A DNA stretch of 39,984 bases from Anaerolineaceae bacterium (GTDB taxonomy: Bacteria > Chloroflexota > Anaerolineae > Anaerolineales > Anaerolineaceae), in assembly GCA_011620555.1 (NCBI GenBank), contig WOYY01000060.1, positions 1 to 39,984 on the forward strand, written 5' to 3'. Of this stretch, positions 1 through 17,536 are shown piece by piece. The notes beneath the pieces are model-generated. The model was not told the origin of the DNA, made no database searches, and saw nothing but the letters and a program-made list of their open reading frames with translations. Position 1 is the stretch's first letter. Every line of letters starts with the position of its first letter. The position numbers and the translations under genes are program-made.

Positions 1-1429
1 AGTAGAGAAAACGGCGGGCATTGATGCGGTGCGCTTCAGGCGCTTTCACTTCATCTGCCGCCAGAAAAGCCTCCAACTGGGCGAGATAAGCCTCGCGCGT
101 CCTGGGGAAATAGACTGTCTCCAACTGGGTGAAACGGGCTTTGCCCGCACTGAGCACCGGCGCACCCATGATCGCGGCTTCCATCCCAATTGTGGAATTG
201 TAGATCATCACAAACTTCGAGCGCTGAATCATCTCATACGAACTGAAATAGGCATCCGGCGGGACAAAGTCCACATTCGGCCGGTCCGCCACCCGATTCC
301 TCGCCGCCCATTCCGCCACGCTTTCGCGGCTGGCCTTGCCGGGGCGGGATTCGTCCGGATGCGCCCGAATGACGAACAGGGTCTCAGGGTGCTTCTCGGC
401 AACCCTCAAAACCTCATCCAGCCAGACAAACATATCCTCAAAGACCACATTGGCATGCGGCTGGCTGGTGTCAAAGATCACGTTGGTAAAAACAGGCACG
501 ACCTGTTCAAAATCCTCCAGCTTTTCAATGAAATCCTGATCCAGCCCGCTCATCTCCGGCCAGAACTGGACCCCCGCCATGCTGAAATTGCCTTTGAAAC
601 GCTTGGAAAGATAGGCATCCAGCTTTCGGTCCATTTCGGGGGTCAGTTGAAAGTCCTCCGGGATCTCCACCGGATAGGCCGTCGCTTCCCCGGGCGTGAA
701 GAAAGCCGAAGCGGGCGCCAGGCCCACCTCATGCGAATAGACCGGGATGCCCCGCTGCCAGGCCACCCAGCGGGCCGTGGCTTCCGGGAACTGCATCCCG
801 TTGAAAACCATCACGGCCAGGGGGTTCACGTCCCGCAGCAGCTGCTCAAATTCCTGAGCAATACTCCAGGCAGAGAGAATGTAATTGCGATAAAGATGGG
901 TGGCCGGCTCGTCATCCACCAGGTGGTGACGTCGCAGGATCCAGCGCACCGAAGGGAGACAAAGCGCTCCCAGGGGGATCTCTTGGTAAGTGAAGCTCTG
1001 CAATTCCGCCAAGGAAAGCGCGCTGACCTGGGCTGCCAGATCGGCATCCGGGCGATAATCCAGCTCCACCCCTTCGGACTGAGCATAGATCACCTCGGAC
1101 TGCTTCAGACATTGTTTGCAGGGCGGCTCCCGCAGGACGTCATCCGTCCGGGTGCCCAGAACGCATTGGGCCATCCCCCGCCGGCAGACAACATTGACCA
1201 CCCGCGCGCCTTGCAGCCGCAGCGACCAGCCGGTCAGCAGCGCAAAGGCCGCGTTCAGGCTCAACCCGGTGATCCGGGTGGAGGCGTTGAAGGAAATGAT
1301 AACTTTCCCGTCGTCAGGATCTGGCGCGGCCTGCGCCACCTGCGCGGCCATCTGCCGGATCTGGCGATTGATGGCCTGCCGGGCAGGGCGAATCTGCAGG
1401 AGGTCTTTGGCTCTCTCCGCTAAGGTCAT
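1..1429 (-). CDS. Capsule-type polysaccharide biosynthesis glycosyltransferase (partial, runs off window start)
   Basis: The minus-strand frame stays open from an ATG at 1429 to base 1, so the C-terminus lies outside the window; 476 codons are visible. The C-terminal half has a GT-B-like pattern seen in KpsC/KpsS-type capsule proteins: a VIRAHPDESRPG segment followed by an MIYNSTIGMEAAIMGAPV segment, the usual nucleotide-sugar-binding half. The protein at 18506-20092 has the matching pair (VIRVHPGE and YTTTVGLEMALQG), so the two look like distant paralogues. The start lies 13 bases after the neuB stop, so it is the visible last gene of the operon. It probably acts in the cytoplasm, transferring a sugar to the surface glycan. 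Use of a CMP-nonulosonate donor is only inferred from the adjacent neuB/neuA. The family call is fairly secure; donor and acceptor are unknown. Confidence 0.7.
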   Translation of the reverse strand, partial: MTLAERAKDLLQIRPARQAINRQIRQMAAQVAQAAPDPDDGKVIISFNASTRITGLSLNAAFALLTGWSLRLQGARVVNVVCRRGMAQCVLGTRTDDVLREPPCKQCLKQSEVIYAQSEGVELDYRPDADLAAQVSALSLAELQSFTYQEIPLGALCLPSVRWILRRHHLVDDEPATHLYRNYILSAWSIAQEFEQLLRDVNPLAVMVFNGMQFPEATARWVAWQRGIPVYSHEVGLAPASAFFTPGEATAYPVEIPEDFQLTPEMDRKLDAYLSKRFKGNFSMAGVQFWPEMSGLDQDFIEKLEDFEQVVPVFTNVIFDTSQPHANVVFEDMFVWLDEVLRVAEKHPETLFVIRAHPDESRPGKASRESVAEWAARNRVADRPNVDFVPPDAYFSSYEMIQRSKFVMIYNSTIGMEAAIMGAPVLSAGKARFTQLETVYFPRTREAYLAQLEAFLAADEVKAPEAHRINARRFLY

Positions 1430-1442: not shown

Positions 1443-2318
1443 CTAGGTACTATAGCGGCGCAGTTTGCTCAGCGAAGATTGTTCGCTTTCGTAGACCTTT
1501 TTCTCGCCATCGCCGACGGCTTTTTCCGTCACCCGGATATATTTCACCAGGGTGCGGATGCCCTGCGGCTCCACGGAAGCGGCCTGATCGGAACCCCACA
1601 TGGCCCGGTCCAGGGTAACATGCCGTTCAATCAGGCAGGCGCCCATCGCCACGGCAACCGCCGAGGTGACCAGCCCCACCTCGTGTCCGGAGTAGCCAAT
1701 CGGGCAGTCAAAGCGTTCACGCAGGGTCTGGATCATTTTCAGGTTCAATTCTTCCGGCGGGCAGGGGTAGCTGCTGGTGGAGTGGCAGATCAGCAGATTA
1801 TCCATCCCGAGGATCTCAACCGCGGCGTTAATCTCTTCCAGAGTGGACATACCCGTGGAGAGGATCACCGGGCGGCCGGTCTTTTTGAGCGCTCGCAGCA
1901 GTTCATGGTCCGTCAGCAGGGCGGAAGGCACTTTGTGCGCCGGCGGGTTGAAGGCATCAATGAATTCCAACGAAGGAATATCCCAGGCGCTGGCCAGCCA
2001 ATCAATCCCCAGAGACTTGGCATACGCATCAATTTCAGCATACTCTTCCTGGCCGAATTCCACCTTATAGCGATAATCCAGGTAAGAAATATAGCCCCAG
2101 GGGGTGTCCCGCATCTGACCTTTTTGATGGTCAGGCACGCAGACCTCAGGGGTCCGTTTTTGGAATTTGACCGCATCCACCCCGGCCTCATGGGCCGCTT
2201 TGATCAGGTCTTTGGCAACCTGCACATCGCCATTGTGGTTGATCCCAATTTCAGCAATAATATAAGTGGGATGTCCTGCCCCCACCCAGCGGTTACCAAT
2301 TTGTATTTCTCGTGTCAT
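1443..2318 (-). CDS. neuB: NeuB-family nonulosonic acid synthase lacking the SAF domain
   Basis: This 291-residue protein has the NeuB TIM-barrel landmarks: AEIGINHNG near residues 22-30, AVKFQKRTPE near 49-58, a STGMSTLEEI segment, a CHSTSSYP segment and GYSGHE near 208-213. Members of the family condense PEP with an N-acylmannosamine-type or related sugar to make a nine-carbon nonulosonic acid. Ordinary bacterial NeuB proteins are about 340-350 residues and end in a SAF (antifreeze-like) domain that closes the active site of the partner subunit. This protein ends right after the barrel (…LSKLRRYST), with a clean stop followed 13 bases later by the next gene, so the domain is absent, not split off. 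It lies downstream of the radical SAM gene and the neuA-HAD fusion. The exact product (Neu, Kdn, legionaminic or other) cannot be read from sequence. Confidence 0.87.
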   Translation of the reverse strand: MTREIQIGNRWVGAGHPTYIIAEIGINHNGDVQVAKDLIKAAHEAGVDAVKFQKRTPEVCVPDHQKGQMRDTPWGYISYLDYRYKVEFGQEEYAEIDAYAKSLGIDWLASAWDIPSLEFIDAFNPPAHKVPSALLTDHELLRALKKTGRPVILSTGMSTLEEINAAVEILGMDNLLICHSTSSYPCPPEELNLKMIQTLRERFDCPIGYSGHEVGLVTSAVAVAMGACLIERHVTLDRAMWGSDQAASVEPQGIRTLVKYIRVTEKAVGDGEKKVYESEQSSLSKLRRYST

Positions 2319-2369: not shown

Positions 2370-3446
2370 TTAATTGGAGAGGAAACTCCCAATCAAATTC
2401 ATATCGCATTGTTCTGTGCACTTGATGCCAGGCTTCAGGTCAAAATGCGCATTTCGGAAATCGGCATACTTCTCACCATTCCAGATATCATAGAGCGATT
2501 CCGTGCGGGTATCGCCCAAGATGATCTCGTTGTTGAAGTCCTCCACACATTCTGCGCATTCACCATTGGACTTAATCGTCATGGAAGTCCAAGGGAATTG
2601 ACAAAATTCGATCCAGTGAATGGATTTAGTTTGCTGCTGATTATCCTCGTACCACATTTGGTCCTGGCTCTTCAGGTAGATATACACATCGCAGCCATCA
2701 AAAGCCTCTTTCAGGCGTTCAAATTCATCTTCCTGCCAGGGCTTATTGAGGTTAATCATCGTGATCACGATCTGCGTCTTGTAATTTCGCTGCGCTTTGA
2801 GGTCCAGCAGTTTGAGGATGTTCTTGTAGGATTCGGAGAAATTCGAAGCCTGGCCCCGGACTTCCTTATGTCGCAGGTCATCCACGCTCTCGATCGAATA
2901 CTTGACATAGCCCAGCCCATTTTCAAAGGTCTCAATGGTCCGTTCCATGTTGATGTTGGCAGGGTTACATGAGAAATAACTTTCCAGCCCTTTCTCCGTC
3001 ATCCATTTAACATATTGGGGCATGTTCCGGTCCAGAAGCGGATCGCCATAGCCATGCAAAACGATCACCCTGGGGATGACATACAGGAAATAATGATTCT
3101 CGCTCATCTCATCCTTGCGGATCCCGTAATTTTCAAAGACAAACTTCTCCCACCGATCCAATTGTTCGGGGGTAAAGGGTTTGAGCTGATCGATGACCTT
3201 TTTGAACAATTCAGGCGCCATCGTCTCGACCGGCCGGGTCATCATGGTCGTGCGCGGGCACATCTCACAGCGCATGTTGCAGGCATTCGTGGTTTCAATA
3301 TTGTAGACAACCGGGTCTTTGCTGCGGAAGCTCTCATATTGCTGCTCCAGGACCTCCCGCGGCAACCGCTCCCCGTTCATCAAGCGGTATTTCAAATTGA
3401 ATGCCTTCATATAGAATTCAATATCAATCATCAGGTCTCCATCCAA
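2370..3446 (-). CDS. Radical SAM/SPASM-like enzyme embedded in nonulosonate genes
   Basis: 358 residues. The radical SAM cluster motif is CNMRCEMC (CX3CX2C, near residues 56-63), which binds the SAM-cleaving 4Fe-4S cluster. A later segment with HGYGDPLLD fills the role of the SAM-contacting GGEP strand. The C-terminal third has several cysteines (FCQFPWTS, GECAECVED, KCTEQCD) in a SPASM/twitch-like pattern that would bind auxiliary clusters. About 30 charged and aromatic residues (near 90-125) separate the motif region from the next strand. It sits between neuA-HAD and neuB, in the same direction with short gaps, so its substrate may be the nonulosonate, its precursor or the CMP-sugar. That is inference: no radical SAM step is part of the classical sialic, legionaminic or pseudaminic acid pathways. 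An alternative ATG lies at 3431. Confidence 0.85.
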   Translation of the reverse strand: MDGDLMIDIEFYMKAFNLKYRLMNGERLPREVLEQQYESFRSKDPVVYNIETTNACNMRCEMCPRTTMMTRPVETMAPELFKKVIDQLKPFTPEQLDRWEKFVFENYGIRKDEMSENHYFLYVIPRVIVLHGYGDPLLDRNMPQYVKWMTEKGLESYFSCNPANINMERTIETFENGLGYVKYSIESVDDLRHKEVRGQASNFSESYKNILKLLDLKAQRNYKTQIVITMINLNKPWQEDEFERLKEAFDGCDVYIYLKSQDQMWYEDNQQQTKSIHWIEFCQFPWTSMTIKSNGECAECVEDFNNEIILGDTRTESLYDIWNGEKYADFRNAHFDLKPGIKCTEQCDMNLIGSFLSN

Positions 3447-3472: not shown

Positions 3473-4711
3473 CTACCCAGCCGATTTGTAACGAGCCAAT
3501 ATCATATCACAAAGTTCACGGACCGCGCCCTTACCGCCTTTCTTCGAAAGGACAAGGTCTGCGCCCTGAACAACCTCTTCATGCGCATCCGCCGGGGCAA
3601 CTGCAAACCCAACTTCCGGGAAAACCACCAGGTCGGTGATGTCGTTCCCCACGAAAATGACTTCCGCAGCGGGAATCTGCTTTTCCGCCAAAACCTGCCG
3701 GATCGCTGCGGGTTTATCAAGGACCGCCTGCAAGACAGGCAGGTTGAGCTTCTCACAGCGGGCCTTCACCACCCGATCCGTCTCCCGTGAAAGGACCATC
3801 ACCTCAATATCCGTTTCATGCCGCAGCCGTTCCAGGCCTAAGCCATCCGACCGGCTGGCAGCAACCATCTCCTCCCCTTTCGCATTCACCCACACCCGGT
3901 CATCGGTCAATACGCCATCAAAATCAAGGACGATCAAGCTGATTTTTGCAGGCATCTTGCGCCGCAAGGTCCCCGGCGTCACCATTTCCAGGTCGTCAGC
4001 ATTCAGCATGCGCTCGGCATGATCCCAGTCGGCGAGAATGTCAATATCAACGGTATAACGCGGGTCAATCATCAGAGGCAGGATCACCTGCCCGGTCATC
4101 GAGTGTTTTTCGAGGATTGTTTTCGTCCAAATCGCGTCAATGTGGCCCGTCTGCCAGTACGCATCGGGCAGGATCTGCCGCGGGGCGTTATAGGGTTCCG
4201 CCACGCCTTCCACCTTCAGCAGAGGGCTCAGCGCGCCGGAGTCGGCATCCACCGTCCACATTTTGAAGGGATTCTGCCCCGCGGGGATCACGCCGCGGAC
4301 ACTATCCGCCCCGGGGTGGTCCAGCAAGAGTTGGATCGCATCGTCCACGCAATGCATCGGGCGAATGGGAGAAGTCGGCCGCAGCCAAACTACCATCTCA
4401 GGGTGATAATCTTCATTTTCCGCAAGCCAATCCAAACCATGCTGCATCACCGGCAGGTCAAGCGTGTCATCTCGGGCCAATGCTGCAGGCCGCAAAAAAG
4501 GCGTTTCCGCCCCCCACCGCCTGGCAATTTCAGCAATTTCTTCATCATCGGTGGAGACGATCACCCGGGTTACCAACTTGGACTGCTGGGCCGCGGCGAT
4601 GCTATAGGCAATCAAAGGGAAACCAGCGAAGTCTTTAATATTCTTCCGGGGAATGCCTTTGGAGCCGCCGCGGGCCGGGATCACAGCTAAAATTTCCGGT
4701 TTATTTACCAT
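3473..4711 (-). CDS. neuA: CMP-nonulosonate cytidylyltransferase fused to a KdsC-like HAD phosphatase
   Basis: The N-terminal half is a NeuA-type cytidylyltransferase: AVIPARGGSKGIPRKN at the start, VSTDDEEIAEIA, LRPTSPIR and the DIDILADWDHAE end motif, expected to form CMP-nonulosonic acid from CTP. The C-terminal half (about 155 residues) is a KdsC-type HAD phosphatase with all four motifs: DFDGVLTD with both aspartates, VLSRETD, the lysine in LDKPAAI, and GNDITD. The HAD part therefore looks catalytically competent and may remove a 9-phosphate before activation. The layout matches animal CMAS enzymes, which also carry a KdsC-like C-terminal domain. ATGs at 4729, 4720 and 4711 are all in frame. 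I chose 4711 because it follows the SDR stop by two bases and gives the usual short lead before AVIPARGG; the 4729 start would overlap the SDR by 16 bases. Confidence 0.88.
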   Translation of the reverse strand: MVNKPEILAVIPARGGSKGIPRKNIKDFAGFPLIAYSIAAAQQSKLVTRVIVSTDDEEIAEIARRWGAETPFLRPAALARDDTLDLPVMQHGLDWLAENEDYHPEMVVWLRPTSPIRPMHCVDDAIQLLLDHPGADSVRGVIPAGQNPFKMWTVDADSGALSPLLKVEGVAEPYNAPRQILPDAYWQTGHIDAIWTKTILEKHSMTGQVILPLMIDPRYTVDIDILADWDHAERMLNADDLEMVTPGTLRRKMPAKISLIVLDFDGVLTDDRVWVNAKGEEMVAASRSDGLGLERLRHETDIEVMVLSRETDRVVKARCEKLNLPVLQAVLDKPAAIRQVLAEKQIPAAEVIFVGNDITDLVVFPEVGFAVAPADAHEEVVQGADLVLSKKGGKGAVRELCDMILARYKSAG

Positions 4712-4713
4712 GC

Positions 4714-5538
4714 CTACCATGCCGTCCATCCGCCATCTACCACCAGGTTTGCCCCGGTCATATAGGCTGAAGCTTCGGAGGCCAGAAACACAACCGCCCC
4801 GCTCATCTCATCCTGCTCCGCCATCCGGCCGATCACCGTGCGGGAGGAATACGCCTTGAGGAAGGTTTCATCATGCTGGTTATAAACTCCGCCCGGCGTC
4901 AGGGCATTCACCCGGATATTCGTCCCGGCGTAATAGGTCGCCAGGTACTTGGTCAATCCCAGCACGCCCGCCTTGCTGACGGTGTAGTAGACAGGTTTGT
5001 ATTGGCGCGGGCCATCCGGCCGCTCGTAGATCCGCTGGTCCGGCCCCACCAACCCATAGGTCGAACAAATATTGATAATCTTGCCATACTCCTGGGCGAC
5101 CATCTGGCGGGCCGCGGCCTGACAGACAAGGAACATCCCGGTCAGATTGACATCCATCGCCGCCTTCCAGGCCTCCAGCGGGTAAGTTTCAAAGGCATTG
5201 CCCGATTGGGCATCCTGGTTATCGGGGTCAAATTTGGGGTCCAGGGCCGCACCGTTGACGATCACATCCAGGCTGCCAAAATGCTCCACCGCGCGCGCAA
5301 CCAGCGCCTCAACGGAAACGGGGTCCGTGACATCCACCTGCACGGGGAGCGCTGCCAGCCCGGCGTGGGTCAAGGTCTCCGCCTGGGCTTCCGCCTGGGC
5401 CAGGTTCAGGTCCGCCACGACCACCTTGGCGCCCGCCTCCCCCAGAGCCTGGGTGAACTGCCGCCCCAGCAGCCCCGCCCCCCCGGTCACCAGGGCCGTC
5501 CGGCCAGCCAAGGAGAATTTATCCATGATCGTTGTCAT
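4714..5538 (-). CDS. SDR-family NAD(P)-dependent oxidoreductase
   Basis: 274 residues of a classical short-chain dehydrogenase: the TGGAGLLG nucleotide-binding loop near residue 18, DVNLTGMF, ICSTYG with the catalytic serine, a YTVSK motif carrying catalytic Tyr and Lys, a PGGVYN loop and the terminal VVDGGW strand. The ATG at 5538 has a good ribosome binding site (GAAGGAAG, 4 bases upstream). It opens the neuA-HAD/radical SAM/neuB set and an extended -10 lies just upstream, so it probably starts a sub-operon. SDRs of this kind (for example PtmA of Campylobacter) occur in flagellin legionaminic acid loci, which would fit oxidation or reduction of a sugar precursor. The substrate is not determined. 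Confidence 0.85.
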   Translation of the reverse strand: MTTIMDKFSLAGRTALVTGGAGLLGRQFTQALGEAGAKVVVADLNLAQAEAQAETLTHAGLAALPVQVDVTDPVSVEALVARAVEHFGSLDVIVNGAALDPKFDPDNQDAQSGNAFETYPLEAWKAAMDVNLTGMFLVCQAAARQMVAQEYGKIINICSTYGLVGPDQRIYERPDGPRQYKPVYYTVSKAGVLGLTKYLATYYAGTNIRVNALTPGGVYNQHDETFLKAYSSRTVIGRMAEQDEMSGAVVFLASEASAYMTGANLVVDGGWTAW

Positions 5539-5648: not shown

Positions 5649-6638
5649 TTAGAAATTGGTTTTTTGGCCGGTCCTGGAAGACCGGCGAATCGCTTCAGTG
5701 AGTTCCAAAGCCCGGATGCCATCGGCCAAATCACAGCGGGAGCTGGCCCCGCCCCGCAGCACCTCCAGAAAATGCGCCGTCTCACTGAGGAACAGCTGGT
5801 TTCGTTCAAAGCCCTCAGGGGGAAAGAGCGTTTCCCAGCTTGTGCTATCCGCCGCGTAAATCTTCGCCTCGCCACTCGCATTATCCCAGCGGATCAGGCC
5901 GCGCTCAAAAATGATCGCCAGGGTATGCTCAGGGGGGCGCTGAATATAATCTAGATGAACACTGCCAACCACGCCGTTCTCGAAGCCCAGGGTGATCTCA
6001 GCCAGGTCTTCCACGTCCAGCGCCAGACCGGAGACCTGAGCGGTCGTGCCCGTCAGCGAGCGCACCTCGCCAAACAGCCAGCGGACGTAATCCAGCGGGT
6101 GGCTGAGAGTGTTCACCACGCCGCCCCCCAGATCCCGCCGGGCGGCATAGGACTGGCGATAATCTTCCCAGGGATGCCAGTCGGGCAGGTATTCCCCCCA
6201 ATGCACCCGGAAGGAAAGCGGCCGGCCCAACGCGCCTGCAAGGATGATTTCCCGGATGCGCGCCAGGGTGGGGTGGAAGCGGTTCTGGAACCCCACCAGC
6301 ACCTGGAGGTCTTTCGTCGTCACGATCCTTTGCAGCTCGGAGACCCGCTCATCCAACCGGCCCGAGATCGGCTTTTCCAGCAGCAGATGACATCCGGCTT
6401 TCGCCGCCGGCAGAGCAATATCCAAATGGTAAGCGGTCGGGTTGGCCACGATCACGGCATCCGGCTTCTGCGCCAGGGCTTGGCCCAGGTCCGTTTCAAC
6501 GGGGAAATCCGCCAATTCCTGATCCGGCAGGGTGCTTTGGTGGGTGCGATAAAGCAGGATATCGCGCTCGCCCAGCGCAACCAGGTTGCGCAGGTGCCGC
6601 CTGCCGATCGAACCCAGACCTGCAATCATGAATTTCAT
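5649..6638 (-). CDS. Gfo/Idh/MocA-family sugar oxidoreductase
   Basis: About 329 residues. The Rossmann loop GLGSIGRRHLRN comes first, followed by VIVANPTAYH and LLLEKPIS, the EKP segment whose lysine is catalytic in this family. The C-terminal half has a GGGVVNTLSHPLDY segment like those lining the substrate site of Gfo/Idh proteins. Such enzymes oxidise or reduce a hydroxyl of a sugar or nucleotide sugar with NAD(P). The frame extends to a GTG at 6653, but the ATG at 6638 has GGAAG five bases upstream and places the Rossmann strand directly at the N-terminus, so I chose it. Its place between the small membrane protein and the SDR-neuA set suggests modification of the same sugar; the substrate is unknown. 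Confidence 0.83.
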   Translation of the reverse strand: MKFMIAGLGSIGRRHLRNLVALGERDILLYRTHQSTLPDQELADFPVETDLGQALAQKPDAVIVANPTAYHLDIALPAAKAGCHLLLEKPISGRLDERVSELQRIVTTKDLQVLVGFQNRFHPTLARIREIILAGALGRPLSFRVHWGEYLPDWHPWEDYRQSYAARRDLGGGVVNTLSHPLDYVRWLFGEVRSLTGTTAQVSGLALDVEDLAEITLGFENGVVGSVHLDYIQRPPEHTLAIIFERGLIRWDNASGEAKIYAADSTSWETLFPPEGFERNQLFLSETAHFLEVLRGGASSRCDLADGIRALELTEAIRRSSRTGQKTNF

Positions 6639-6663
6639 AGCCGCTTCCGGCACGCTCGATTAA

Positions 6664-8337: not shown

Positions 8338-8638
8338 TTACGGGTAAGGGTCCCGACAATAAACCTGGGGATCCTGGACTTCTTCCAAATGATAGCGGTT
8401 TTGCTTCTCACTATAATAACTTTTATCTTCCAGAAGGTCAAAGTCCAGATCAAAAAAATAAAATAGGCCGCCCCAAAAAGTACCAGTCCAAGAAGCGCTG
8501 AAAATAACACCGGCCGCCAAGGTGAGGCTGGGGTGACTTCACCCAGGTGTTGGCCTAAAGGAGCAGCGGCGCGGTAACACTGATGAGCAATAGATATCAA
8601 GGCATTTTTACGGGTTCGCTTTTTTGCTTAAAAGCCAT
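8338..8638 (-). pseudogene. Frameshifted small one-helix membrane protein (two homopolymer shifts)
   Basis: An ATG at 8638 with an excellent ribosome binding site (AGAGGAGAGA) begins MAFKQKSEPVKMP and then stops. Adding one base to the six-base homopolymer at 8620-8625 opens the next frame (…ALISIAHQCYRAAAPLGQ), which carries one membrane helix (VLFSALLGLVLFGAAYFIF). Adding one base to the seven-base homopolymer at 8452-8458 moves to a third frame with an acidic, tyrosine-rich tail (DLDFDLLEDKSYYSEK, then QDPQVYCRDPYP) and a stop at 8338, ten bases before the next ATG. The repaired product would have about 100 residues. Either the gene is broken, or both shifts are sequencing errors, or it is phase variable. 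I do not recognise the family. Confidence 0.6.
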
Positions 8639-8747
8639 TCTCTCCTCTGTTCTTGAGCCGAGGCTATCCAATTAATGAACTGAGATTAACCTTGCTGGAT
8701 TTCCTACCCATTAGTCATCGCCAGGTTAAAAGTTATACCCCAAACTT

Positions 8748-9746
8748 TTAGCCATTCAACCAGCGGTAAAGCCGGTTGACAATGCCCTGAACAATACGAC
8801 GGAACCAGCCCACCTTCATCAAGCGGTTTACGATGCCCCCCGCTTTCTTCACCGGCTGCGCCGCCTGAACTTCCAAACCGGACTGGCGCGCCAGCTCGGC
8901 AACTTCCTCGGAGATCGCGTTCCCCATCAGGCGCACCGTCTGCTGGCGGGTGCAGAACCGCAGGTAGCCCTTGGCGTCCATCCGGTCATCCATCTCCACC
9001 ATCCGGCCCATCACAGCCCCACTCCAGCCCTCGGGCAGCATCTCTGCCAACACGTCCTGCACCACATCCTTCGGGCAGACCATCTGAAAGTGGTGGGCGG
9101 AGACCCAGGCTTGCAGACCCTGATAACTGACGATAACATCCTCGATCCCGGCGACCTCTTCCGCATACCGCTCCCAGGTGCGGCCGCTGTTCACCAGGTA
9201 TTCCTCTTCCCATTTGCGCGGCATCAACAGGCCGCGCTCCGTCTCAACCCCCGGCTGGTTGACAAAAGCCAGCGTGCTATTGGAACTCATCGCCACCCGC
9301 TGGCGGATATAGAAGCCGGTCACAGCGCCAACATTTGGAAAGGTGTCAATGATCTTCAGATGCTCCCCCAGCCAACCCGGCAGGTGGAAAACATCGTCAT
9401 CCGTATAGGCCACGATCTCGCCGGGCGCGGCGTTAAAAATGATCTTCAGCGCATTGAGCTTGCCAATGTTCCGCTTTGAGAGGATCAGGTAGTCAATCTT
9501 GCCATCCGCCTGCAGGGAGGTGAGATAGCCCACCATCTCCGGGCAGCTGCCGTTATCGAAAACCAGCAGATCAAAAGGCTCCTGGGTGTTCGCCAGGATG
9601 CTCTCAATCGTCATCCGGGTCACATCTAGACGGTTCTGGAAATAGCCCGCCTGATGGGGCGCATAAACCAGCACCGCCACCGTCGTGCGCGCGGGTTTGA
9701 AATCCAGGGTCTGACCGCGCGAAGGGTTATATCCAATCCGGGGCAT
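8748..9746 (-). CDS. Family 2 glycosyltransferase
   Basis: 332 residues with GT-A/GT2 landmarks: VAVLVYAP at the first strand, LLVFDNGS near residue 60, LSKRNIGKLNAL, and IVAYTDDDVFHLPGW, where TDDD supplies the metal-binding DxD. The C-terminal 50 residues are basic with amphipathic helices (VNRLMKVGWFRRIVQ), possibly lying on the membrane face. It would add a sugar to the growing glycan in the cytoplasm. The stop of the upstream gene lies three bases before this ATG. The 109 bases between this gene's stop and the next gene's start show no clear promoter. Donor sugar unknown. Confidence 0.82.
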   Translation of the reverse strand: MPRIGYNPSRGQTLDFKPARTTVAVLVYAPHQAGYFQNRLDVTRMTIESILANTQEPFDLLVFDNGSCPEMVGYLTSLQADGKIDYLILSKRNIGKLNALKIIFNAAPGEIVAYTDDDVFHLPGWLGEHLKIIDTFPNVGAVTGFYIRQRVAMSSNSTLAFVNQPGVETERGLLMPRKWEEEYLVNSGRTWERYAEEVAGIEDVIVSYQGLQAWVSAHHFQMVCPKDVVQDVLAEMLPEGWSGAVMGRMVEMDDRMDAKGYLRFCTRQQTVRLMGNAISEEVAELARQSGLEVQAAQPVKKAGGIVNRLMKVGWFRRIVQGIVNRLYRWLNG

Positions 9747-9749
9747 CGC

Positions 9750-10688
9750 TCAACCTGCCTTATCCGCTTTAAATTTATACGCCAGCCAACCCCGGATTTC
9801 CCTGAAGGCTACGATCGGGTGGAAGATCGCAAAACTGATCGAACCCAAAAGCCGGGAATGGAGCTTGATGAGCGGGAAGATCTCGACCTCCCGCCAAAAA
9901 CCCTTCCAACCCAGGGGTTTGCGCGCCAGGCCAGCATTGGTCAGGAGATAGCGCGAATCGGTCGCAATGAAGATCGACCGCCTGCCGCCGGCGAGTTTGA
10001 CATTTTCATGGGATTCCGGTTGGCGGAAATGGATCACGCCCCCTGGCAGGTGGGCGTAATCGTGGTTTTGGTGAATCGCTGTGATGGAGGGCGTGGCGTC
10101 CACCAGCTTCCAGCCCTGATAGCGCGCCTCGTAGATCATCCAGTTATCCCATCCTGCCCGGCCGACGGCAAAGTCGGGAATATCCCTGAAACAGGCCCGC
10201 GGGTAAATGAAATAGTCGCTGCCGGTCTGGCCATGCAGCCGGCCTTTTTCCGCCGCCAACCGGCGCAGCTGGGCGGGCCAATCGCCGGTGAAATCGAGCG
10301 ACTCGGTGATATCCGTGTCATAACGCTGACCGATCGCCAGAAATGGCGCAGGCTCATCCGCCAGCCGCCGAACGGCATCCACCAGGTCTGGCAAGAAGAG
10401 GATGTCCGCATTGGCATAAGCCAGAAAAGGCGACTTGTTCAGGTTGCGTCCCAGCTCGAAGATCGAACTGATCAGGGGCGTCCCCTGCGCGTTGGTCCGG
10501 ACCTGCGGCAGATGCCGGATCCCATACTCCCGGCAGACTTCGGCCACGCCGGGGTCATCCCCGATGACGGCCACAGCGACCTCTTCCCCCAGGGCCAGCC
10601 AGTTTCGCAGCATATTGCGCTGGATGGTATTGATATGAGGGTCCGCAAAGGATTTGGGGGCCGTAAACAGCGTCAGCAAGGGGGCCAT
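9750..10688 (-). CDS. Probable glycosyltransferase (GT-A-like)
   Basis: 312 residues. The N-terminus LLTLFTAPKSFADPH and an FLAYANADILFLPDL segment resemble the first strand and the DxD-equivalent region of GT-A glycosyltransferases. A GWDNWMIYEARYQGWKLVDATP segment is typical of proteins annotated as hypothetical glycosyltransferases in polysaccharide loci. The C-terminal region is basic and partly hydrophobic. It overlaps the upstream methyltransferase by one base (TGATG), indicating translational coupling. The fold assignment is moderately sure; substrate and product are unknown. Confidence 0.62.
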   Translation of the reverse strand: MAPLLTLFTAPKSFADPHINTIQRNMLRNWLALGEEVAVAVIGDDPGVAEVCREYGIRHLPQVRTNAQGTPLISSIFELGRNLNKSPFLAYANADILFLPDLVDAVRRLADEPAPFLAIGQRYDTDITESLDFTGDWPAQLRRLAAEKGRLHGQTGSDYFIYPRACFRDIPDFAVGRAGWDNWMIYEARYQGWKLVDATPSITAIHQNHDYAHLPGGVIHFRQPESHENVKLAGGRRSIFIATDSRYLLTNAGLARKPLGWKGFWREVEIFPLIKLHSRLLGSISFAIFHPIVAFREIRGWLAYKFKADKAG

Positions 10689-11609: not shown

Positions 11610-12389
11610 TCAGCCCCGGCTGTCAATGTCCTTAAATGATTTGTGTTGCACCCCGGCGTTGAGCGCGCCCAATTCCGGGTGGCGCTGGAGGTAATCCACC
11701 ACCTCCGCCATGCCGAAGTCATTGCCGCCGCCAAAGTGGGCCGTGATCCTACGAATCAGCTCGAGGTCCTCGGCCGTGTCCACCGTCAGGCGCAGCGCGC
11801 CCCAATCCGGCTCATGGTCCACCAGCAAGGTCTTGAACCGGCCGGGTTCCTCATAGAGATAGGGCATCACATGCTCGCGGGCATATTGGGCCTCCGCCTC
11901 CTGCCAGGCGCGGGTGAGCGCGGCTATCCTGACTACCTCGGTATCCATCCCGATCGGGGTGGTACGCTTCCAGGGAGGCGGCAGCCGATTGGCGGCAAAA
12001 TCCGCCTGGGCCGTCTGGAACGCTCGGACCGTCCGGTCAACCTCGGCCGGGTCCAGCAGGGGGCAATCCGCCGTCAGGCGGACCACCGTCTCGGCCTGAA
12101 AGGTCCGGGCCGCCTGGTAGTAACGGTCCAGCACGTCATAGGGGTCCCCCCGGAAGACCGGGAACCCCATGCGCTCGCAGTAAGCCTCGACCGGGTCGTC
12201 CCCGGCCTCCGTCGTGGTCGCCACCACAACGCGCCCGATGGTCTGGGCATGCCGGGCGCGGATCACCACGCGGGAGAGCATCGGCTGGCCCTCAATCTCC
12301 CGCAGGACCTTGCCGGGCAGACGGCTGGACCCCATCCGGGCCTGGATGATCGCAACCACACCGGCGTTCCTGATCTTGTCTTTAGCCAT
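11610..12389 (-). CDS. spsF: SpsF-type cytidylyltransferase (CMP-sugar activation)
   Basis: 259 residues from the ATG at 12389, seven bases after the GT4 stop and preceded by AAGGATAAG. The frame continues far upstream but there it only shadows the GT4 gene. Landmarks: VVAIIQARMGSSRLPGKVL, VVVATTTEAGDD, FRGDPYDVLDRYYQA, VVRLTADCPLLDP. This is the SpsF/cytidylyltransferase family (PF02348) found beside neuB-like spsE in spore-coat and flagellar glycan loci. It probably forms the CMP-derivative of the product of the NeuB at 13571-14641. A second, unrelated CMP-transferase (NeuA-HAD) exists at 3473-4711, which argues for two activated acids. Confidence 0.86.
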   Translation of the reverse strand: MAKDKIRNAGVVAIIQARMGSSRLPGKVLREIEGQPMLSRVVIRARHAQTIGRVVVATTTEAGDDPVEAYCERMGFPVFRGDPYDVLDRYYQAARTFQAETVVRLTADCPLLDPAEVDRTVRAFQTAQADFAANRLPPPWKRTTPIGMDTEVVRIAALTRAWQEAEAQYAREHVMPYLYEEPGRFKTLLVDHEPDWGALRLTVDTAEDLELIRRITAHFGGGNDFGMAEVVDYLQRHPELGALNAGVQHKSFKDIDSRG

Positions 12390-12396
12390 CTTATCC

Positions 12397-13533
12397 TTAT
12401 TCTCCCAGGCTCTGGCCGGGCAGCACGGACCTGGCAGGGGAATCCCCTGCCAGGCGGTACGCAGCCAGGCATTTCTGAAAATTGTCCTGCCAGTTCGCCC
12501 GCGCTTCAGCCAGCGACCTCCCCGCGATCCCATAGCTCGGGGTTTCCGGGGAATCCGCCAGGGCCACCAGCGAGTCCCGGAGGTCTGCAACTGACCCCGC
12601 CCTGAACGTGTGCCCATTGACGCCCGGCTCCACCCATTCCCGATTGCCGGGAATATCGGAGGCCAGCACCGGCCGCCCGCAGGCCAGCGCCTCCAGCAAG
12701 GAGATCGAAGAACCGTCGCTGTGTGAAGGGCTGACATAAAGGTCGGCCGCCTGATAAAACGCGGGCAGGTCTGCCTGCGCCACCCGGCCGGCAAAATGCA
12801 CTTTCCCGCCCAGCGGGTCGAGAATCTGGTGAATCAACTCCGCCTGGGGGCCAGATCCCACCAGCAGCAGCCGCAAGCGCGGGTCCAGCTGGACCGCCTC
12901 CGCAAAGGCCTGGGCCAGGTCGCTCACCCCGTAGAGCGGCGCCCAGGTCCGGCTGCAAAAGATGACGAATTGATCCTCCCAGCCCAGCGCCGATCGCAAA
13001 GCCAGCCCCGCCTCCCGGCCACTTTCCGGCGAGAAATGCGCCAGGTCCACCCCCCAGGGAAAAAGCACCATCCGACCCCGCGGGAAGCCAAAGCTCGCCG
13101 CGGCCTCTGCCACCGTCTGGCAGTCGCCGAGGAAAACATCCGTCCGGTCGAGGGTGCAGCGGGTCGCCGCCCGCATCCAGGGGCTGCGCTGGGCGGTGAG
13201 CAAGAGGTCGGAACCCCAGGACATGGTCACCAGCGGGTGAAAGCCCGCCAGGGCGGTCACCAAAGCTGGCCCCTGCACTGGGCCGGCATGGATCAGATCC
13301 GGCCGAGTTTCCGCCAGGTATTTTACAAACCGGCCTACCCCGGCCTGCCATCCGGCCCAGCCAGACCAATCCGGCTGACCCGCAGGCCATCTAAGTTCGG
13401 TGACGCCTGCCGGCGTCTGGGGCTGGCATTCAAACTGCCGAAGCGCAAAAACCTGGTGCGCCGTTCCCGCCAGGGCGGTCAGAAAACGCCGGTCATGCGG
13501 CGTATCTCGCTCGGTGAAATAGAGGACTCGCAT
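12397..13533 (-). CDS. Family 4 glycosyltransferase
   Basis: 378 residues, GT-B fold. The N-terminal domain starts RVLYFTERDTPHDRRFL and holds LIHAGPVQGPAL. The C-terminal domain has VIFCSRTWAPLYGVSDL, LLLVGSGPQ, VHFAGRVAQADLP and YVSPSHSDGSSISLLEALACG, the EX7E-type donor-site motif of GT4 retaining enzymes. It sits between the SAF-containing neuB and spsF, so it may act on the sugar of that module, although GT4 enzymes more often use UDP or GDP sugars. Family assignment is firm; specificity is unknown. Confidence 0.87.
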   Translation of the reverse strand: MRVLYFTERDTPHDRRFLTALAGTAHQVFALRQFECQPQTPAGVTELRWPAGQPDWSGWAGWQAGVGRFVKYLAETRPDLIHAGPVQGPALVTALAGFHPLVTMSWGSDLLLTAQRSPWMRAATRCTLDRTDVFLGDCQTVAEAAASFGFPRGRMVLFPWGVDLAHFSPESGREAGLALRSALGWEDQFVIFCSRTWAPLYGVSDLAQAFAEAVQLDPRLRLLLVGSGPQAELIHQILDPLGGKVHFAGRVAQADLPAFYQAADLYVSPSHSDGSSISLLEALACGRPVLASDIPGNREWVEPGVNGHTFRAGSVADLRDSLVALADSPETPSYGIAGRSLAEARANWQDNFQKCLAAYRLAGDSPARSVLPGQSLGE

Positions 13534-13570
13534 CAGGTCTCGCTTAGGGGGTTCCTGTGATGAAGGGGGC

Positions 13571-14641
13571 CTAGGGGTTGCCGAATTGCGACCAGCGCAA
13601 TTCCTGCCCGGTGGAGATCCGCTCCAGCACTTTCAGACCGATCAGGTCATCAAGCTTATAGGGCTGGATTGCGCCCGGGGTTGCCGGCCGCAGCACGTCG
13701 ATCATCTCCCGGGAGATGATCTCGCCAGGCTGCAGGTCTCGGGCCGCCCGCAGGCAGCGCCGTTGGATCACAACGGTCTCGCGTTCGTTATCCGCCACGA
13801 ACTTATCGCCGGACCCCAGCGCGCGTTCCAGCTGGCGGGTGGCCCTGACCATCTCCGCCCAGGTCTGGGGGTTCATCGCAAAGGGATGATCGGGGCCGAC
13901 CCGGCCGTTATCGTCGGTGAAGTGCTTTTCCACCACCCTTGCGCCCAGCGTCACCGCGCCCAGCACGGTCGCATGGCCGTGGGTGTGGTCCGAGAGACCC
14001 AGGGGCAGCTCGGGGTACATGGATTGGTAGGTCCTCAGCACATTCAGATGGATATGATCAAAATTGCCGTCCGCGGCGGTGTAGTTCGTGTTGCACTGCA
14101 TCAGCACCAGCTGAGGGTTGATCGCCAGAATCGCTTCCACCGCCCGCTGGACATCGCCAATGGTTGAAGCGCCCGTCGCCAGGAGCACCGGCTTGCCTTT
14201 GCTGGCGATTCGCTCGCAGGCCTCAATCCAGGTGATGTCGCCCGAGCCGATCTTATAGGCCGGGACGTAATCATCCAGCATGTCAATCGCTTCAAAGTCA
14301 TAGGGCGAGGAGAAATAGTCGATCCCCACCTCGTCGCAAGTTGCTTTGAGGATCGGCGTCCAGTCGAAAGGCAGGGAGGCGGAGGCATAAACTTCCGTGA
14401 CGGATTTCTCCCATTTCGCCTGGTGGGAGACCCGGGCGTTCATGTGGGTGAAGCCATAGTCCGAAACAATCTTGGGCGCCTGAAAATTCTGGAACTTGGC
14501 GGCGTCCGCGCCGGCTTCCTTGGCCAGGCGGATCAGGAGCTTGGCGCGTTCCAGGCTGCCGTCATGGTTGGCGGCGATATCCGCAATGAAATACGTGGGA
14601 TGGTCTTTCCCTATCGGGTGATTGCCAATCTTCAAATCCAT
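13571..14641 (-). CDS. neuB: NeuB-family nonulosonic acid synthase with SAF domain
   Basis: 356 residues. Barrel motifs: YFIADIAANHDGS, DAAKFQNFQAPK, DYFSSPYDFEAID, KIGSGDITWIEA, LLATGASTIGDV, LGLSDHTHGHAT and VVEKHFTDD. The C-terminal ~65 residues (RRCLRAARDLQPGEII to the end) form the SAF domain. The start at 14641 has GGAGG six bases upstream; the in-frame ATG at 14647 directly abuts that site and is unlikely. The barrel sequence differs clearly from the SAF-less NeuB at 1443-2318 (ADIAANHDGS against AEIGINHNGD), so this is not a recent duplicate. It probably condenses PEP with a six-carbon amino sugar. Its natural partners here are spsF downstream and the RmlD/PseB-like pair upstream. Confidence 0.88.
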   Translation of the reverse strand: MDLKIGNHPIGKDHPTYFIADIAANHDGSLERAKLLIRLAKEAGADAAKFQNFQAPKIVSDYGFTHMNARVSHQAKWEKSVTEVYASASLPFDWTPILKATCDEVGIDYFSSPYDFEAIDMLDDYVPAYKIGSGDITWIEACERIASKGKPVLLATGASTIGDVQRAVEAILAINPQLVLMQCNTNYTAADGNFDHIHLNVLRTYQSMYPELPLGLSDHTHGHATVLGAVTLGARVVEKHFTDDNGRVGPDHPFAMNPQTWAEMVRATRQLERALGSGDKFVADNERETVVIQRRCLRAARDLQPGEIISREMIDVLRPATPGAIQPYKLDDLIGLKVLERISTGQELRWSQFGNP

Positions 14642-14673
14642 TTTCATCCTCCACCAATGGTCACAAAATCAAT

Positions 14674-15591
14674 TCAGGCCTGAAAGCCCTGCAAAATCTG
14701 CGGGTAACCCGCTTCCCAGCGCCCGTGGAACCGCTCCAGACCCTCATCCACACCGGGCAAGGCCTGCCCCAATGCCTGCTGCAGTTTCGAGGTGTCCAAA
14801 GTCAGGTTCAGTGAACGGGCCGCACCCCGGTCCAGACTGCCTGCCCGGACGGGGGCGATCAGGCCGGCATCCAGCCCGAACCTGCGGGCAATCCGCACGC
14901 CAAAGTCATATTTGCTCAGGTGCTCCGGCGCGGCAACGTGATAAACGCCGGAGAGTTCATGCGCAATCATTTTCAGCAAGAGTTCCGCCAGGTCTTCCAC
15001 GTAGAGCGGGCAGAACAGGGTATCGGTGAAGCCCTTCAAAGGCTCCCCCGCCCTGAGCTGATTGAAAAAGAATTCCGCCAGGCTGCGCCTGCCGGAAAGG
15101 CTCCAGCCGTAGAATACCGTGCGGGCGATGACGGCCTCCGGGTTGGCGGCCTGAACCGCCTGCTCCCCGGCCAGTTTGGTGCGGGCGTAAACGCTCAGGG
15201 GGTCCGTGGCGTCCTCTTCGCGGTAGCCGCCTGCCTCCCCATTGAAGACCGCATCGGTCGAGACCTGCACAAAGGGCAGGCCCCGCTGCTTGGCCGCGGC
15301 CGCCAGCCACCCGGGCACTTCGGCGTTCATCCGCCAGGCCAGGTCGGGCTGCTGTTCCGCCGCGTTGATGCTGGCGAGCGCCGCGCAATGGACAATTGCT
15401 TCCGGCCGGGCCGCGTCAATGGCCGCCAGCGCCGAGTCCCGGTCCAGCAGGTCCACCTGCCGCACCTCAAAGGGCGCCCCGCTCAGTGACCGGGAATGCG
15501 CCAGCCCCGTGACCTGAAAGCCCTGGCGGGCGGCCAGGAGGCTGAGGTTCAGGCCCAGCAAGCCTGTGGCGCCGGTCACCAAGAGGCGCAT
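14674..15591 (-). CDS. RmlD-like NAD(P)-dependent sugar-nucleotide reductase
   Basis: 305 residues of an extended SDR: LLVTGATGLLGLNL at the N-terminus, IVHCAALASINAAEQ, VSTDAVFNGEAGGYREED and YARTKLAGE, the catalytic YxxxK. This is the pattern of dTDP-4-dehydrorhamnose reductase (RmlD) and CapF/WbjC-like 4-ketoreductases. It overlaps the dehydratase gene by one base at 15591, so the two are translationally coupled and the dehydratase product (a 4-keto-6-deoxy sugar) is the likely substrate. No RmlA, B or C is visible, so rhamnose is less likely than an N-acetylated 6-deoxyhexose. Confidence 0.82.
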   Translation of the reverse strand: MRLLVTGATGLLGLNLSLLAARQGFQVTGLAHSRSLSGAPFEVRQVDLLDRDSALAAIDAARPEAIVHCAALASINAAEQQPDLAWRMNAEVPGWLAAAAKQRGLPFVQVSTDAVFNGEAGGYREEDATDPLSVYARTKLAGEQAVQAANPEAVIARTVFYGWSLSGRRSLAEFFFNQLRAGEPLKGFTDTLFCPLYVEDLAELLLKMIAHELSGVYHVAAPEHLSKYDFGVRIARRFGLDAGLIAPVRAGSLDRGAARSLNLTLDTSKLQQALGQALPGVDEGLERFHGRWEAGYPQILQGFQA

Positions 15592-16598
15592 CAGTCGGAA
15601 AGCCCTTTCTCGACATCAGCCTCGAAGGGAGCGACGAGTTCTTTGATGCCCTCCAGCGAGAGCCACTCGGTGTTGTTGTCGCTGGCGTAGTGGTATTCAG
15701 CGGGCAGCGGCTGGCCGAGGTCCTGCCAATGGTGGCCGAACCAGAGCGCCGCGGCCGGCTGGACCACATACATATCATCCAGTTCCACCGTGGTGCGGGC
15801 TTCGTCTTCCGAGATCAGGGCTTCATGCAGTTTCTCGCCGGGGCGAATGCCGATCACTCTGATCTCAGCATTGGGGGCGATCGCCTGCGCCAGGTCCACC
15901 ATCTTCATGCTGGGGATCTTCGGCACAAAGACCTCGCCGCCGTCCATCTGCCCGATGCATCGGATCACGAAGCGCACGCCCTGATCCAAAGAGATCCAGA
16001 AGCGGGTCATGCGGTCGTCGGTCAGGGTCACCTGGCCGCTCTCGCGCTGTTTGATAAAGAGCGGAACCACGCTGCCGCGCGAGCCAACCACGTTGCCATA
16101 GCGCACACAGCTAAAGCGGGTGTTGGTGCCGCCGGCATAAGCGTTGCTCTGCACCATCAGCTTCTCGGCGGCCAGCTTGGTAGCGCCATAGAGGTTCACG
16201 GGGTTGACAGCCTTATCCGTGCTCAGGGCCAAGACCTTCTCCACGCCCGTATCCAGCGCGGCATCCACCACGTTGCTGCTGCCGAGGATATTGGTCTTGA
16301 TCGCTTCCATCGGGTTATATTCGCAGGCCGGCACCTGTTTGAGCGCTGCGGCATGCACCACAATATCCACTCCGTGGAAAGCGCGTGTCAGCCGGGGCAG
16401 GTCGCGGATGTCGCCGATGAAGTAGCGCAGATTGGGGTGGTCAAAGCCGGCCATCCGCATCTCGTGCTGTTTCAATTCGTCGCGGCTGTAGACGATCAGG
16501 CGGGCCGGGTGATATTCCTTCAACATCACTTCCACAAATTTCTTGCCGAAAGACCCCGTCCCCCCGGTCACCAGCACATTTTTGTTCGTCCAATCCAT
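15591..16598 (-). CDS. pseB: PseB-type UDP-N-acetylglucosamine 4,6-dehydratase (inverting)
   Basis: 335 residues. Motifs: VLVTGGTGSFGKKF, YSRDELKQHEMR, GDIRDLPRL, HAAALKQVPACEYNP, TNILGSSNVVDAA, LSTDKAVNPVNLYGATKL (with the YxxxK-type pair) and GIRPGEKLHE. These define the PseB/FlaA1/CapE group, which turns UDP-GlcNAc into a 4-keto-6-deoxy product with C5 inversion. The frame opens at 16622, but AGGAGA lies six bases before the ATG at 16598 and immediately before another ATG, so 16598 is the better start. In pseudaminic acid loci PseC (aminotransferase) follows; here an RmlD-like reductase follows instead, as in the FucNAc (CapE-CapF) type of pathway. Confidence 0.87.
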   Translation of the reverse strand: MDWTNKNVLVTGGTGSFGKKFVEVMLKEYHPARLIVYSRDELKQHEMRMAGFDHPNLRYFIGDIRDLPRLTRAFHGVDIVVHAAALKQVPACEYNPMEAIKTNILGSSNVVDAALDTGVEKVLALSTDKAVNPVNLYGATKLAAEKLMVQSNAYAGGTNTRFSCVRYGNVVGSRGSVVPLFIKQRESGQVTLTDDRMTRFWISLDQGVRFVIRCIGQMDGGEVFVPKIPSMKMVDLAQAIAPNAEIRVIGIRPGEKLHEALISEDEARTTVELDDMYVVQPAAALWFGHHWQDLGQPLPAEYHYASDNNTEWLSLEGIKELVAPFEADVEKGLSD

Positions 16599-16624
16599 TT
16601 TCATTCTCCTGGGATTTTTCAAAA

Positions 16625-17536
16625 TTATAACGTAGCGGCTGGCTCTTCGGCTGCCGGTTTGGCAACGACCACCAATGGGTATTGACCGATCCGGCCCAGC
16701 CAGCGGGGGAAGACCTCTTCCAGCGCGTAGATCACCTTCAGCCAGAACCGGCCGCCCCAGCCGGGGTAAATCACGGAACGCAGGAAGGCCACGCTCACGC
16801 TGCGCCAGACCAAAATTTCAAAAGGAACCTTGCCGGTCAGGTTTTCGGTCAGCCATTCGGCGGTCAGCTTCTGAACGAACGTGCCCTTAGGCTCATTCTT
16901 TTTCTCTTCGGTTTCAGCCGGCAGTTCTTCAACGGATTCTGCGACCTTCGGTTCAGGATGCTGCTTTTGCACCTGGCGCAGCCGCCAGTTATGAAAGCGA
17001 GCCACAGATTTCATAAACGGGGTGAGCCACTCCATCAAGGGGGCTTCGGTCCACCCGTTGACAATCGCCATCTTCCGGCCGGGCCGCAGCACCCGGTAAA
17101 GGCCCTCATAGGCCGGAAGTTGATCCTCCATCGGGACGTGATGAATCGTGTGCAGGGAGACAATCCCATCAAAGGCCTCGGCCTTGAAAGGCAGATGGAC
17201 AATATCGGCCACCACATAGCGGCCCTTCTCACCCAAACGCTTGCGAGCCTCCCGCAGGGCGACAATCGAAATATCCATGCAGACCCGGGCCTGATAGCCC
17301 TCGGAATAGGTCAGATATTCAGGGTACTGCACGGGGCCGGAACCGGCATCCAGCAGAAATTCGCCGGTGGGGGCCAGATGGCGGTTGATCCGCAGGTGGC
17401 ATTTGTGGATGTAATCACGCGAGACCGGCCGCAGATCTTCATACCTCGCGTTCTGGTAGATTTCATCCCCAACCCTCTGCCAGCCCACGCGGTTATAAAA
17501 CTCACGCACGTCTTTCTTAATGCTCTGATCACTCAT
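16625..17536 (-). CDS. Class I SAM-dependent methyltransferase (type 11)
   Basis: 303 residues. FLLDAGSGPVQYPEYL is motif I, CMDISIVALREA covers strand 2, YVVADIVHLPFKAEAFDGIVS is motif IV, and LRPGRKMAIVNG lies further on. A charged, Pro/Glu-rich linker (EPKVAESVEELPAETEEK) near residues 195-215 separates the catalytic core from a hydrophobic/aromatic C-terminal part (FLRSVIYPGWGGRFWLKV). The tail may associate with membrane or partner proteins. It lies between the radical SAM gene and pseB with short gaps. Probably modifies a glycan sugar or lipid carrier; the substrate is unknown. Confidence 0.8.
   Translation of the reverse strand: MSDQSIKKDVREFYNRVGWQRVGDEIYQNARYEDLRPVSRDYIHKCHLRINRHLAPTGEFLLDAGSGPVQYPEYLTYSEGYQARVCMDISIVALREARKRLGEKGRYVVADIVHLPFKAEAFDGIVSLHTIHHVPMEDQLPAYEGLYRVLRPGRKMAIVNGWTEAPLMEWLTPFMKSVARFHNWRLRQVQKQHPEPKVAESVEELPAETEEKKNEPKGTFVQKLTAEWLTENLTGKVPFEILVWRSVSVAFLRSVIYPGWGGRFWLKVIYALEEVFPRWLGRIGQYPLVVVAKPAAEEPAATL

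Follow-up and report, generated by a model that had tools for sequence, protein, structure and literature searches.

A radical SAM/Twitch enzyme as an optional member of a neuA-HAD/neuB operon in Anaerolineaceae: a candidate tailoring step for a KDN-like CMP-nonulosonate

The operon and its radical SAM protein

The window that we analysed, a stretch of 39,984 nucleotides, corresponds to bases 1-39984 of one contig in a 2.3-Mb assembly of an Anaerolineaceae bacterium. It contains a minus-strand run of six genes in the order Gfo/Idh, SDR, neuA-HAD, radical SAM, short neuB and a probable capsule-type glycosyltransferase (Table 1). A first reading of this DNA, made from the sequence alone (hereafter the sequence-only reading), had placed an open reading frame at 2370-3446 between neuA-HAD and neuB; we confirm this arrangement, with all three genes on the minus strand; the radical SAM gene stands 41 bp from neuA-HAD and 51 bp from neuB. 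The frame indeed runs from an upstream TTG, but the gene probably starts at the ATG at 3431 (residue 6 of that frame), because a GGAG at 3440-3437 precedes this ATG (3431-3429) and most rows of our alignment A1 begin at the corresponding Met. Alignment A1 comprises the window and 15 of the 31 loci of the collection described below; L012 and L030 were left out (stop upstream of the start), as were L037 (Ns in the gene) and the remaining loci, some of which are cut by contig ends.

Table 1. Features of the nonulosonate operon, in window coordinates.
Feature	Coordinates	Strand	Evidence
Radical SAM/Twitch enzyme, 353 aa	2370..3431	-	PF04055 (5e-11), PF13186 (1.5e-12)
CX3CX2C motif, C56/C60/C63 (counted from TTG), radical SAM cluster ligands	3258..3281	-	kept in 31/31 covering rows
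Twitch domain, C282/C300/C343/C347, one predicted auxiliary cluster	2406..2603	-	invariant in 35/35 rows
C160 in FSCNPANI, end of barrel strand, possible H-atom donor	2967..2969	-	33/33 covering rows; modelled strand 156-160
Short NeuB, 291 aa, no SAF match	1443..2318	-	PF03102 E=2.9e-79
CMP-nonulosonate synthetase fused to KdsC/KDN9P-type HAD phosphatase	3473..4729	-	PF02348 + KdsC-type HAD
SDR oxidoreductase, adh_short_C2, gluconate-5-dehydrogenase-like	4714..5538	-	domain matches
Gfo/Idh/MocA oxidoreductase	5649..6653	-	domain matches
Probable capsule-type glycosyltransferase (Capsule_synth), cut by window start	2..1429	-	PF05159 E=9.9e-5

The PF05159 match of the transferase at 2-1429 recurs in two of its homologues (2.2e-6 and 2e-5). 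This protein also has a weak BFO_1060 glycosyltransferase domain, and several of its relatives are 534-557 aa long. The best match of the SDR (4714-5538) in the phage collection is found in Marine virus AG-345-L05 (39.8% identity), and no phage match was found for the radical SAM gene. The nearest named relative of the latter, 94% identical, lies in an Anaerolineaceae MAG.

The protein belongs to the radical SAM superfamily, as it combines the CX3CX2C motif, the PF04055 domain and, in our structure model, a partial TIM barrel fold. The motif had been described as intact in the sequence-only reading, and C56-C60-C63 is conserved in every row that covers it. That reading had further proposed extra C-terminal cysteines for auxiliary clusters. 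The cysteines are indeed present, but they fit one auxiliary cluster (Twitch) and not several (SPASM). According to the excerpted text of PMC6231123, the SPASM motif consists of seven cysteines. Here only four (C282, C300, C343 and C347) are invariant among the 35 aligned rows, that is the window, 31 loci with the gene, and L038, L039 and L137; at a fifth position, C297, the residue is C, A, S or V. We therefore assign the enzyme to the Twitch type, with ligands for a single auxiliary cluster, and the PF13186 match probably reflects coverage of the Twitch part of that model. K259 and H277 are likewise kept in all 34 covering rows. No NCBIfam model reaches its own cut-off for this protein (the top score is 62.8 bits, with a cut-off of 380). 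About 25-30 residues around positions 93-127, present in the family of the enzyme, are missing from two relatives of 24-25% identity. Pfam gave no match to a B12-binding domain in the radical SAM protein, so that a class B (B12-dependent) C-methylation is unlikely and we rejected it.

Neighbours, distribution and operons lacking the gene

One scan of a genome-contig collection yielded 31 relatives of the radical SAM gene. The sequence-only reading had asked whether the neighbours always include neuB and neuA-HAD. The neuB part of this expectation largely stands, with neuB nearby in 30 of the 31 loci, the sole exception being L039, where the contig is cut at the gene. Fused neuA-HAD was found in 24/31. 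Homologues are thus mostly linked to nonulosonate genes, and this across phyla. NeuB is also encoded in L062 and L063, two further loci from the phylum of L036; chance placement can be excluded because 30/31 relatives keep neuB nearby. In 27 of the 30 loci with neuB it is the next downstream gene (within about 260 bp), while it lies some 3-4 kb upstream of the radical SAM gene in L036 and L037, and after neuA-HAD in L040. Three loci (L035-L037) have the HAD part alone, and neither neuA nor HAD was seen in L025, L038, L039 and L041, whose contigs are cut at the upstream side of the gene. The order in L062 is Gfo/Idh, radical SAM, neuA-HAD, neuB.

The remaining company of the gene differs between lineages. 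In L036 and L037, the radical SAM gene is accompanied by methyltransferases and by TPP enzymes resembling acetolactate synthase. The two TPP enzymes (L036:6672-8480 and L037:1519-3357) share 53% identity. In the PDB, the L036 enzyme matches 8rph best (E 3.7e-117), ahead of the best acetolactate synthase (1.5e-84). L036 also encodes a 499-aa protein (8509-10008) in which a Gfo/Idh domain is fused to a KdsC/KDN-type HAD phosphatase. In L035 and L063, an aminotransferase adjoins the radical SAM gene, the cytidylyltransferase is separate and the NeuB bears a SAF domain. The aminotransferase of L063 comes closest to the LegC/PseC models without reaching their cut-offs, and its role could be in an ordinary step. 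Both loci further contain B12-binding radical SAM proteins near the gene (L035:6390-7829 and L063:13736-15124, 35% identical to each other), and in the 751-aa NeuB of L063 (11409-13664), SAF is combined with a CBS match at the N-terminus and a xylose-isomerase-like domain at the C-terminus. The archaeal locus L137 (1-3518), with frames assigned by eye, reads sugar-phosphate-isomerase-like, HAD-like, a 34%-identical radical SAM protein, SDR-like and neuA-like (34% by BLAST for the last). No NeuB match was found in the L137 assembly, which may be incomplete.

Most of the 31 relatives (25; L011-L034 and L038) come from Chloroflexota records annotated as Anaerolineaceae, Brevefilum, Pelolinea, Anaerolineales, Anaerolineae or Chloroflexi. 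The other six belong to Nanoarchaeota (L035), Deltaproteobacteria (L036), Myxococcales (L037 and L039), Proteobacteria (L040) and Propionibacteriaceae (L041). Whole-genome searches of 101 related genomes, the centre genome included, found the gene in 10 (E<=1e-20). Draws from single phyla, again with the centre genomes included and counted at E<=1e-40 with weaker matches outside the counts, gave 1/350 genomes for the phylum of the window (its own genome) and 3/297 for that of L036 (4/297 in an overlapping further draw); the numbers were 1/235, 1/198 and 2/237 for the phyla of L037, L041 and L035, respectively. Full-length matches in these draws had E values of 1e-169 or less, except that of the archaeal L137 (1e-76, 34% identical). 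As most of these genomes are MAGs, single absences carry little weight. The family is small and patchy and it crosses domains, a spread that suggests transfer. The radical SAM enzyme of L035 is 64% identical to that of the window and its NeuB 41%. On plasmids, distant relatives of 20-25% identity represent other radical SAM genes, and no annotated neuB was seen in the five of their 18 regions that were opened, for which the gene table is incomplete.

Operons without the gene were compared as well. A short NeuB is present in 79 of the 101 related genomes (E<=1e-60), eight of which also have the radical SAM gene, and we sampled 40 loci from the 71 others. There, neuA-HAD precedes neuB on the same strand in 38/40, with a gap (measured between aligned ends) of 5-376 bp in 37; no neuA-HAD was seen in L109 and L117. 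No replacement gene was found in this slot in any of the 38 loci where it could be measured. An insert of 1658 bp in L122 holds a membrane-type reading frame that by eye is unrelated, and the gaps of L102 (200 bp) and L108 (376 bp) yielded nothing that convincingly looks like a leftover of the radical SAM gene (tblastn E 0.13 at best). The enzyme had been regarded as part of the operon; it does sit in it, but as an optional insertion, since the operon exists without the gene. The radical SAM enzyme is thus an optional module of the neuA-HAD/neuB operon. Because the core pathway stands without it, the enzyme must add to or edit the product of that pathway.

Trees of the neighbouring genes were also compared. 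In the NeuB tree, the window is closest to the non-carrier L094 (88% identical; L011, whose NeuB is cut, was outside the tree). The genus is a single NeuB clade (support 98) that unites carriers with non-carriers, so the substrate of NeuB need not change when the gene is present. For neuA-HAD, the genus carriers form one clade with the non-carriers L101 and L102 (support 99). Changes of carrier label on the trees numbered 7 for the NeuA part, 8 for the HAD part (borders between the two sliced by proportion) and 11 for NeuB, against about 20 for shuffled labels. We also considered a co-adaptation of neuA-HAD with the gene and rejected it. The mean column excess with gene presence, a statistic confounded by kinship, was 0.049 for neuA-HAD, 0.043 for the SDR, 0.023 for NeuB, 0.022 for the transferase and 0.016 for Gfo/Idh; four neuA-HAD columns were not significant in kinship-paired tests, and an AU test on the full genus set did not require neuA-HAD exchange (p 0.42).

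The two upstream oxidoreductases were counted in carriers and non-carriers, leaving out loci with less than 2600 bp upstream and seven distant loci. Gfo/Idh was found in 16/16 carriers vs 17/34 non-carriers, a bias with a Fisher p of 3e-4 that ignores kinship and is not significant in a kinship-paired test (5 independent pairs). The SDR shows no bias towards carriers (13/16 vs 32/34). Since both occur in operons without the gene, neither is a dedicated partner of the radical SAM enzyme.

Core pathway and candidate reactions

The HAD domain gives an indication of the core pathway. Its residues E316 and K327 are present in 66/66 homologues, with and without the radical SAM gene, while E. coli KdsC has Arg and Thr at these positions. 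We take this Glu/Lys pair, which corresponds to E56/K67 in the Bacteroides enzyme, to be a mark of 9-phosphate (KDN-type) phosphatases; our literature searches found no paper on the pair as such a mark. By profile, the domain stays below the KDN-9-P phosphatase model NF058599 (92.4 bits vs a cut-off of 180), below the KdsC model (119 bits, cut-off 208) and below the YrbI family (104.7, cut-off 106.95). The KDN-9-P pathway of Bacteroides thetaiotaomicron consists of a synthase, a HAD phosphatase and a CMP-KDN synthetase, the same three activities that we predict here, and the HAD domain of the window is related to 3e81/3e8m. That pathway is not known to involve radical SAM, SDR or Gfo/Idh enzymes. 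The Glu/Lys pair together with the SAF-less NeuB suggests a core route from a hexose 6-phosphate over a KDN-like 9-phosphate and the free acid to the CMP-sugar. In such a route, the short NeuB would condense a six-carbon sugar phosphate with PEP, after which the HAD domain would strip the 9-phosphate, the NeuA domain would then make the CMP-sugar and the capsule-type transferase downstream would use it.

Given its constant neuB company (30/31 loci plus L062 and L063, though not L137), the radical SAM enzyme very probably tailors a nonulosonate or its direct precursor. As for the net reaction, a dehydrogenation turning a hydroxyl into a ketone is our tentative first choice, by analogy with BtrN, the 2-deoxy-scyllo-inosamine dehydrogenase of butirosin. 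Such a plain dehydrogenation was missing among the reactions proposed in the sequence-only reading (epimerisation, dehydration, deoxygenation or C-methylation). The BtrN entries 4m7t/4m7s were the only PDB sequence matches at E<=1e-4 in a profile search (8.8e-11, about 1e-10). Both proteins combine a radical SAM barrel with a Twitch domain, both space the first two auxiliary cysteines 18 residues apart, and an EDFN stretch follows the second of these in each. There are also differences: BtrN has about 250 residues against about 353 here, the window enzyme is extended at the N-terminus and by about 30 residues between CX3CX2C and GDPLL, the matched stretches are short, and BtrN acts in an aminocyclitol context and not next to nonulosonate genes. 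In the excerpts of PMC9012708 and PMC6231123, the Twitch cluster of BtrN has four cysteine ligands and its reaction is a two-electron oxidation; an oxidation of this kind fits the Twitch cluster (PMC9012708, in part). The 5'-deoxyadenosyl radical would take a hydrogen from a hydroxyl-bearing carbon of the substrate, and the substrate radical would give an electron to the single auxiliary cluster, yielding the ketone as in BtrN.

A ketone product would explain why the gene has reductase, TPP carboligase or aminotransferase partners in different lineages. In relatives of the window, Gfo/Idh (with or without the SDR) could reduce the ketone to an epimer; in L036 and L037, the TPP carboligase could place a two-carbon branch on it; in L035 and L063, the PLP aminotransferase could convert it to an amine. 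The aminotransferases may, however, have other roles in these loci. Taken together, our reading is that a KDN-like CMP-nonulosonate pathway can be supplemented with this tailoring enzyme, which forms a ketone in BtrN fashion, a proposal that falls somewhat short of probable. With more reserve, we raise the possibility that nonulosonate pathways have exchanged a radical SAM-based ketone module across the divide of bacteria and archaea and across both NeuB classes. Such a module would open one carbon of the nine-carbon chain to different finishing enzymes (reductase, aminotransferase or TPP carboligase), giving several sialic-acid-like sugars not yet described, be they epimeric, amino-bearing or carbon-branched.

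We favour a radical step that follows NeuB and takes place no later than NeuA, as NeuB seems unaffected by whether the gene is present. The enzyme might instead act on a hexose or hexose phosphate, with NeuB condensing the altered sugar. The gene does occur beside two types of NeuB, the short one and the SAF-bearing one of L035/L063, and in L137 it adjoins the sugar-phosphate-isomerase-like frame in an assembly without a NeuB match. We nevertheless find such early action rather unlikely, as identity between the NeuBs of carriers and non-carriers reaches 88% and the column excess is lower for NeuB than for neuA-HAD, bearing in mind that kinship confounds that statistic.

The structure model (mean pLDDT 81.5, pTM 0.86, from a 16-row alignment) places the protein near several radical SAM enzymes. 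VIA-align ranked DesII first (Z 19.7, 3.3 Å, 282 residues, 14% identity), followed by SuiB (Z 17.1, 3.7 Å, 255 residues) and BtrN (Z 16.8, 3.7 Å, 220 residues), with MoaA, anSME and SkfB close to BtrN at Z 16.5-16.1, and the EpeE epimerase further down (Z 13.6, 5.2 Å, 250 residues), about 6 Z units below DesII. Foldseek placed BtrN first (2.2e-9) and DesII second (5.5e-9). In fold score, the peptide enzymes SuiB, anSME and SkfB (Z 16-17) are about equal to BtrN.

The strongest rival to the dehydrogenation is an epimerisation, in which hydrogen would be abstracted at a carbinol carbon and returned from the other face by C160, as in NeoN. C160 is the kind of residue that an epimerase would need: it is invariant in 33/33 covering rows and lies at the end of a barrel strand in the model. 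In the excerpted text of PMC10991966, Cys249 is the hydrogen donor of NeoN, the neomycin C epimerase, a carbohydrate radical SAM enzyme from a different context. NeoN is missing from the VIA-align list, which carries no weight either way, and EpeE is included. On the other side, C160 is also found in a distant Roseibium relative (24% identity) whose region has no annotated neuB, and the position is Leu in a distant Azospirillum relative (25%). BtrN alone matches by PDB sequence, and EpeE scores well below DesII. The described C8-epimerisation of pseudaminic acid, as presented in part of PMC12053666, uses an SDR and a cytidylyltransferase-AKR fusion (EpaA/EpaB, with EpaA as the fusion). That system, which leads to 8-epipseudaminic acid, tailors a nonulosonate, and its SDR is of the same Pfam type (adh_short_C2) as that of the window; it differs from the operon of the window in having no radical SAM protein. 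We therefore regard radical epimerisation as unlikely, though it is the alternative that deserves most attention.

DesII is a radical SAM enzyme acting on a nucleotide sugar. As TDP-4-amino-4,6-dideoxyglucose deaminase (PDB 8hzv/8hzy), it has the highest fold score and spans nearly the whole model; this fold rank and its action on a nucleotide sugar are what speaks for a DesII/AprD4-like lyase, whose deoxygenation, dehydration or deamination would lead to a deoxy- or keto-deoxy nonulosonate. Yet the fold does not give the reaction, DesII is longer and shares 14% identity, and it is no sequence match at E<=1e-4; such a lyase is improbable in our view. A hitch-hiking peptide or cofactor maturase unrelated to nonulosonates is very improbable, and we rejected peptide maturation on gene context: many SPASM proteins do act in peptide pathways (PMC9012708, in the excerpted part) and SuiB, anSME and SkfB stand high in the fold list, but neuB is near in almost all loci, only BtrN matches by PDB sequence and, judged on the two immediate flanks in the window, a precursor gene beside the enzyme is excluded because these flanks measure just 41 and 51 bp.

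Significance and further nonulosonate genes in the window

Flagella, capsules and sludge matrices bear coats of nonulosonates, and the pathways described for these sugars use NAD-, PLP- and acyl-transfer chemistry. The sequence-only reading had stated that no radical SAM step belongs to these pathways, and our literature searches, which had most subscription journals outside their scope, found none either. The operon probably makes a sialic-acid-like surface sugar, and the enzyme, whose relatives keep the same gene company, probably alters that sugar in a way absent from the described pathways. If true, a radical SAM step would be a new way to edit the carbon chain and would define a new branch of the nonulosonate family.

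The question is directly testable, because the gene is present in some close relatives and absent from others, and because Pelolinea submarina MO-CFX1 (L027), a named strain that is in culture and has a complete genome, carries it (L027:10001-11062). As its mass would be unchanged, an epimer would escape detection by mass alone. Anaerolineaceae are common in granular sludge. Nonulosonates including KDN have been reported from granular sludges, anaerobic ones among them, in the excerpted text of PMC10483923. Our literature searches found no paper joining Anaerolineaceae with nonulosonic acids.

The window contains a second nonulosonate-type set at 11610-16622. It comprises a cytidylyltransferase (within 11610-12794), a full-length NeuB with SAF (13571-14647), an RmlD-like reductase (14674-15591) and a confident PseB (15591-16622, 496 bits vs a cut-off of 408). 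No aminotransferase was found among the ten genes scanned near this set, from 12397 to 23198. A second radical SAM protein (17556-18494, 312 aa), with no significant similarity to the first, adjoins the PseB/NeuB set and a large glycosyltransferase-like protein.
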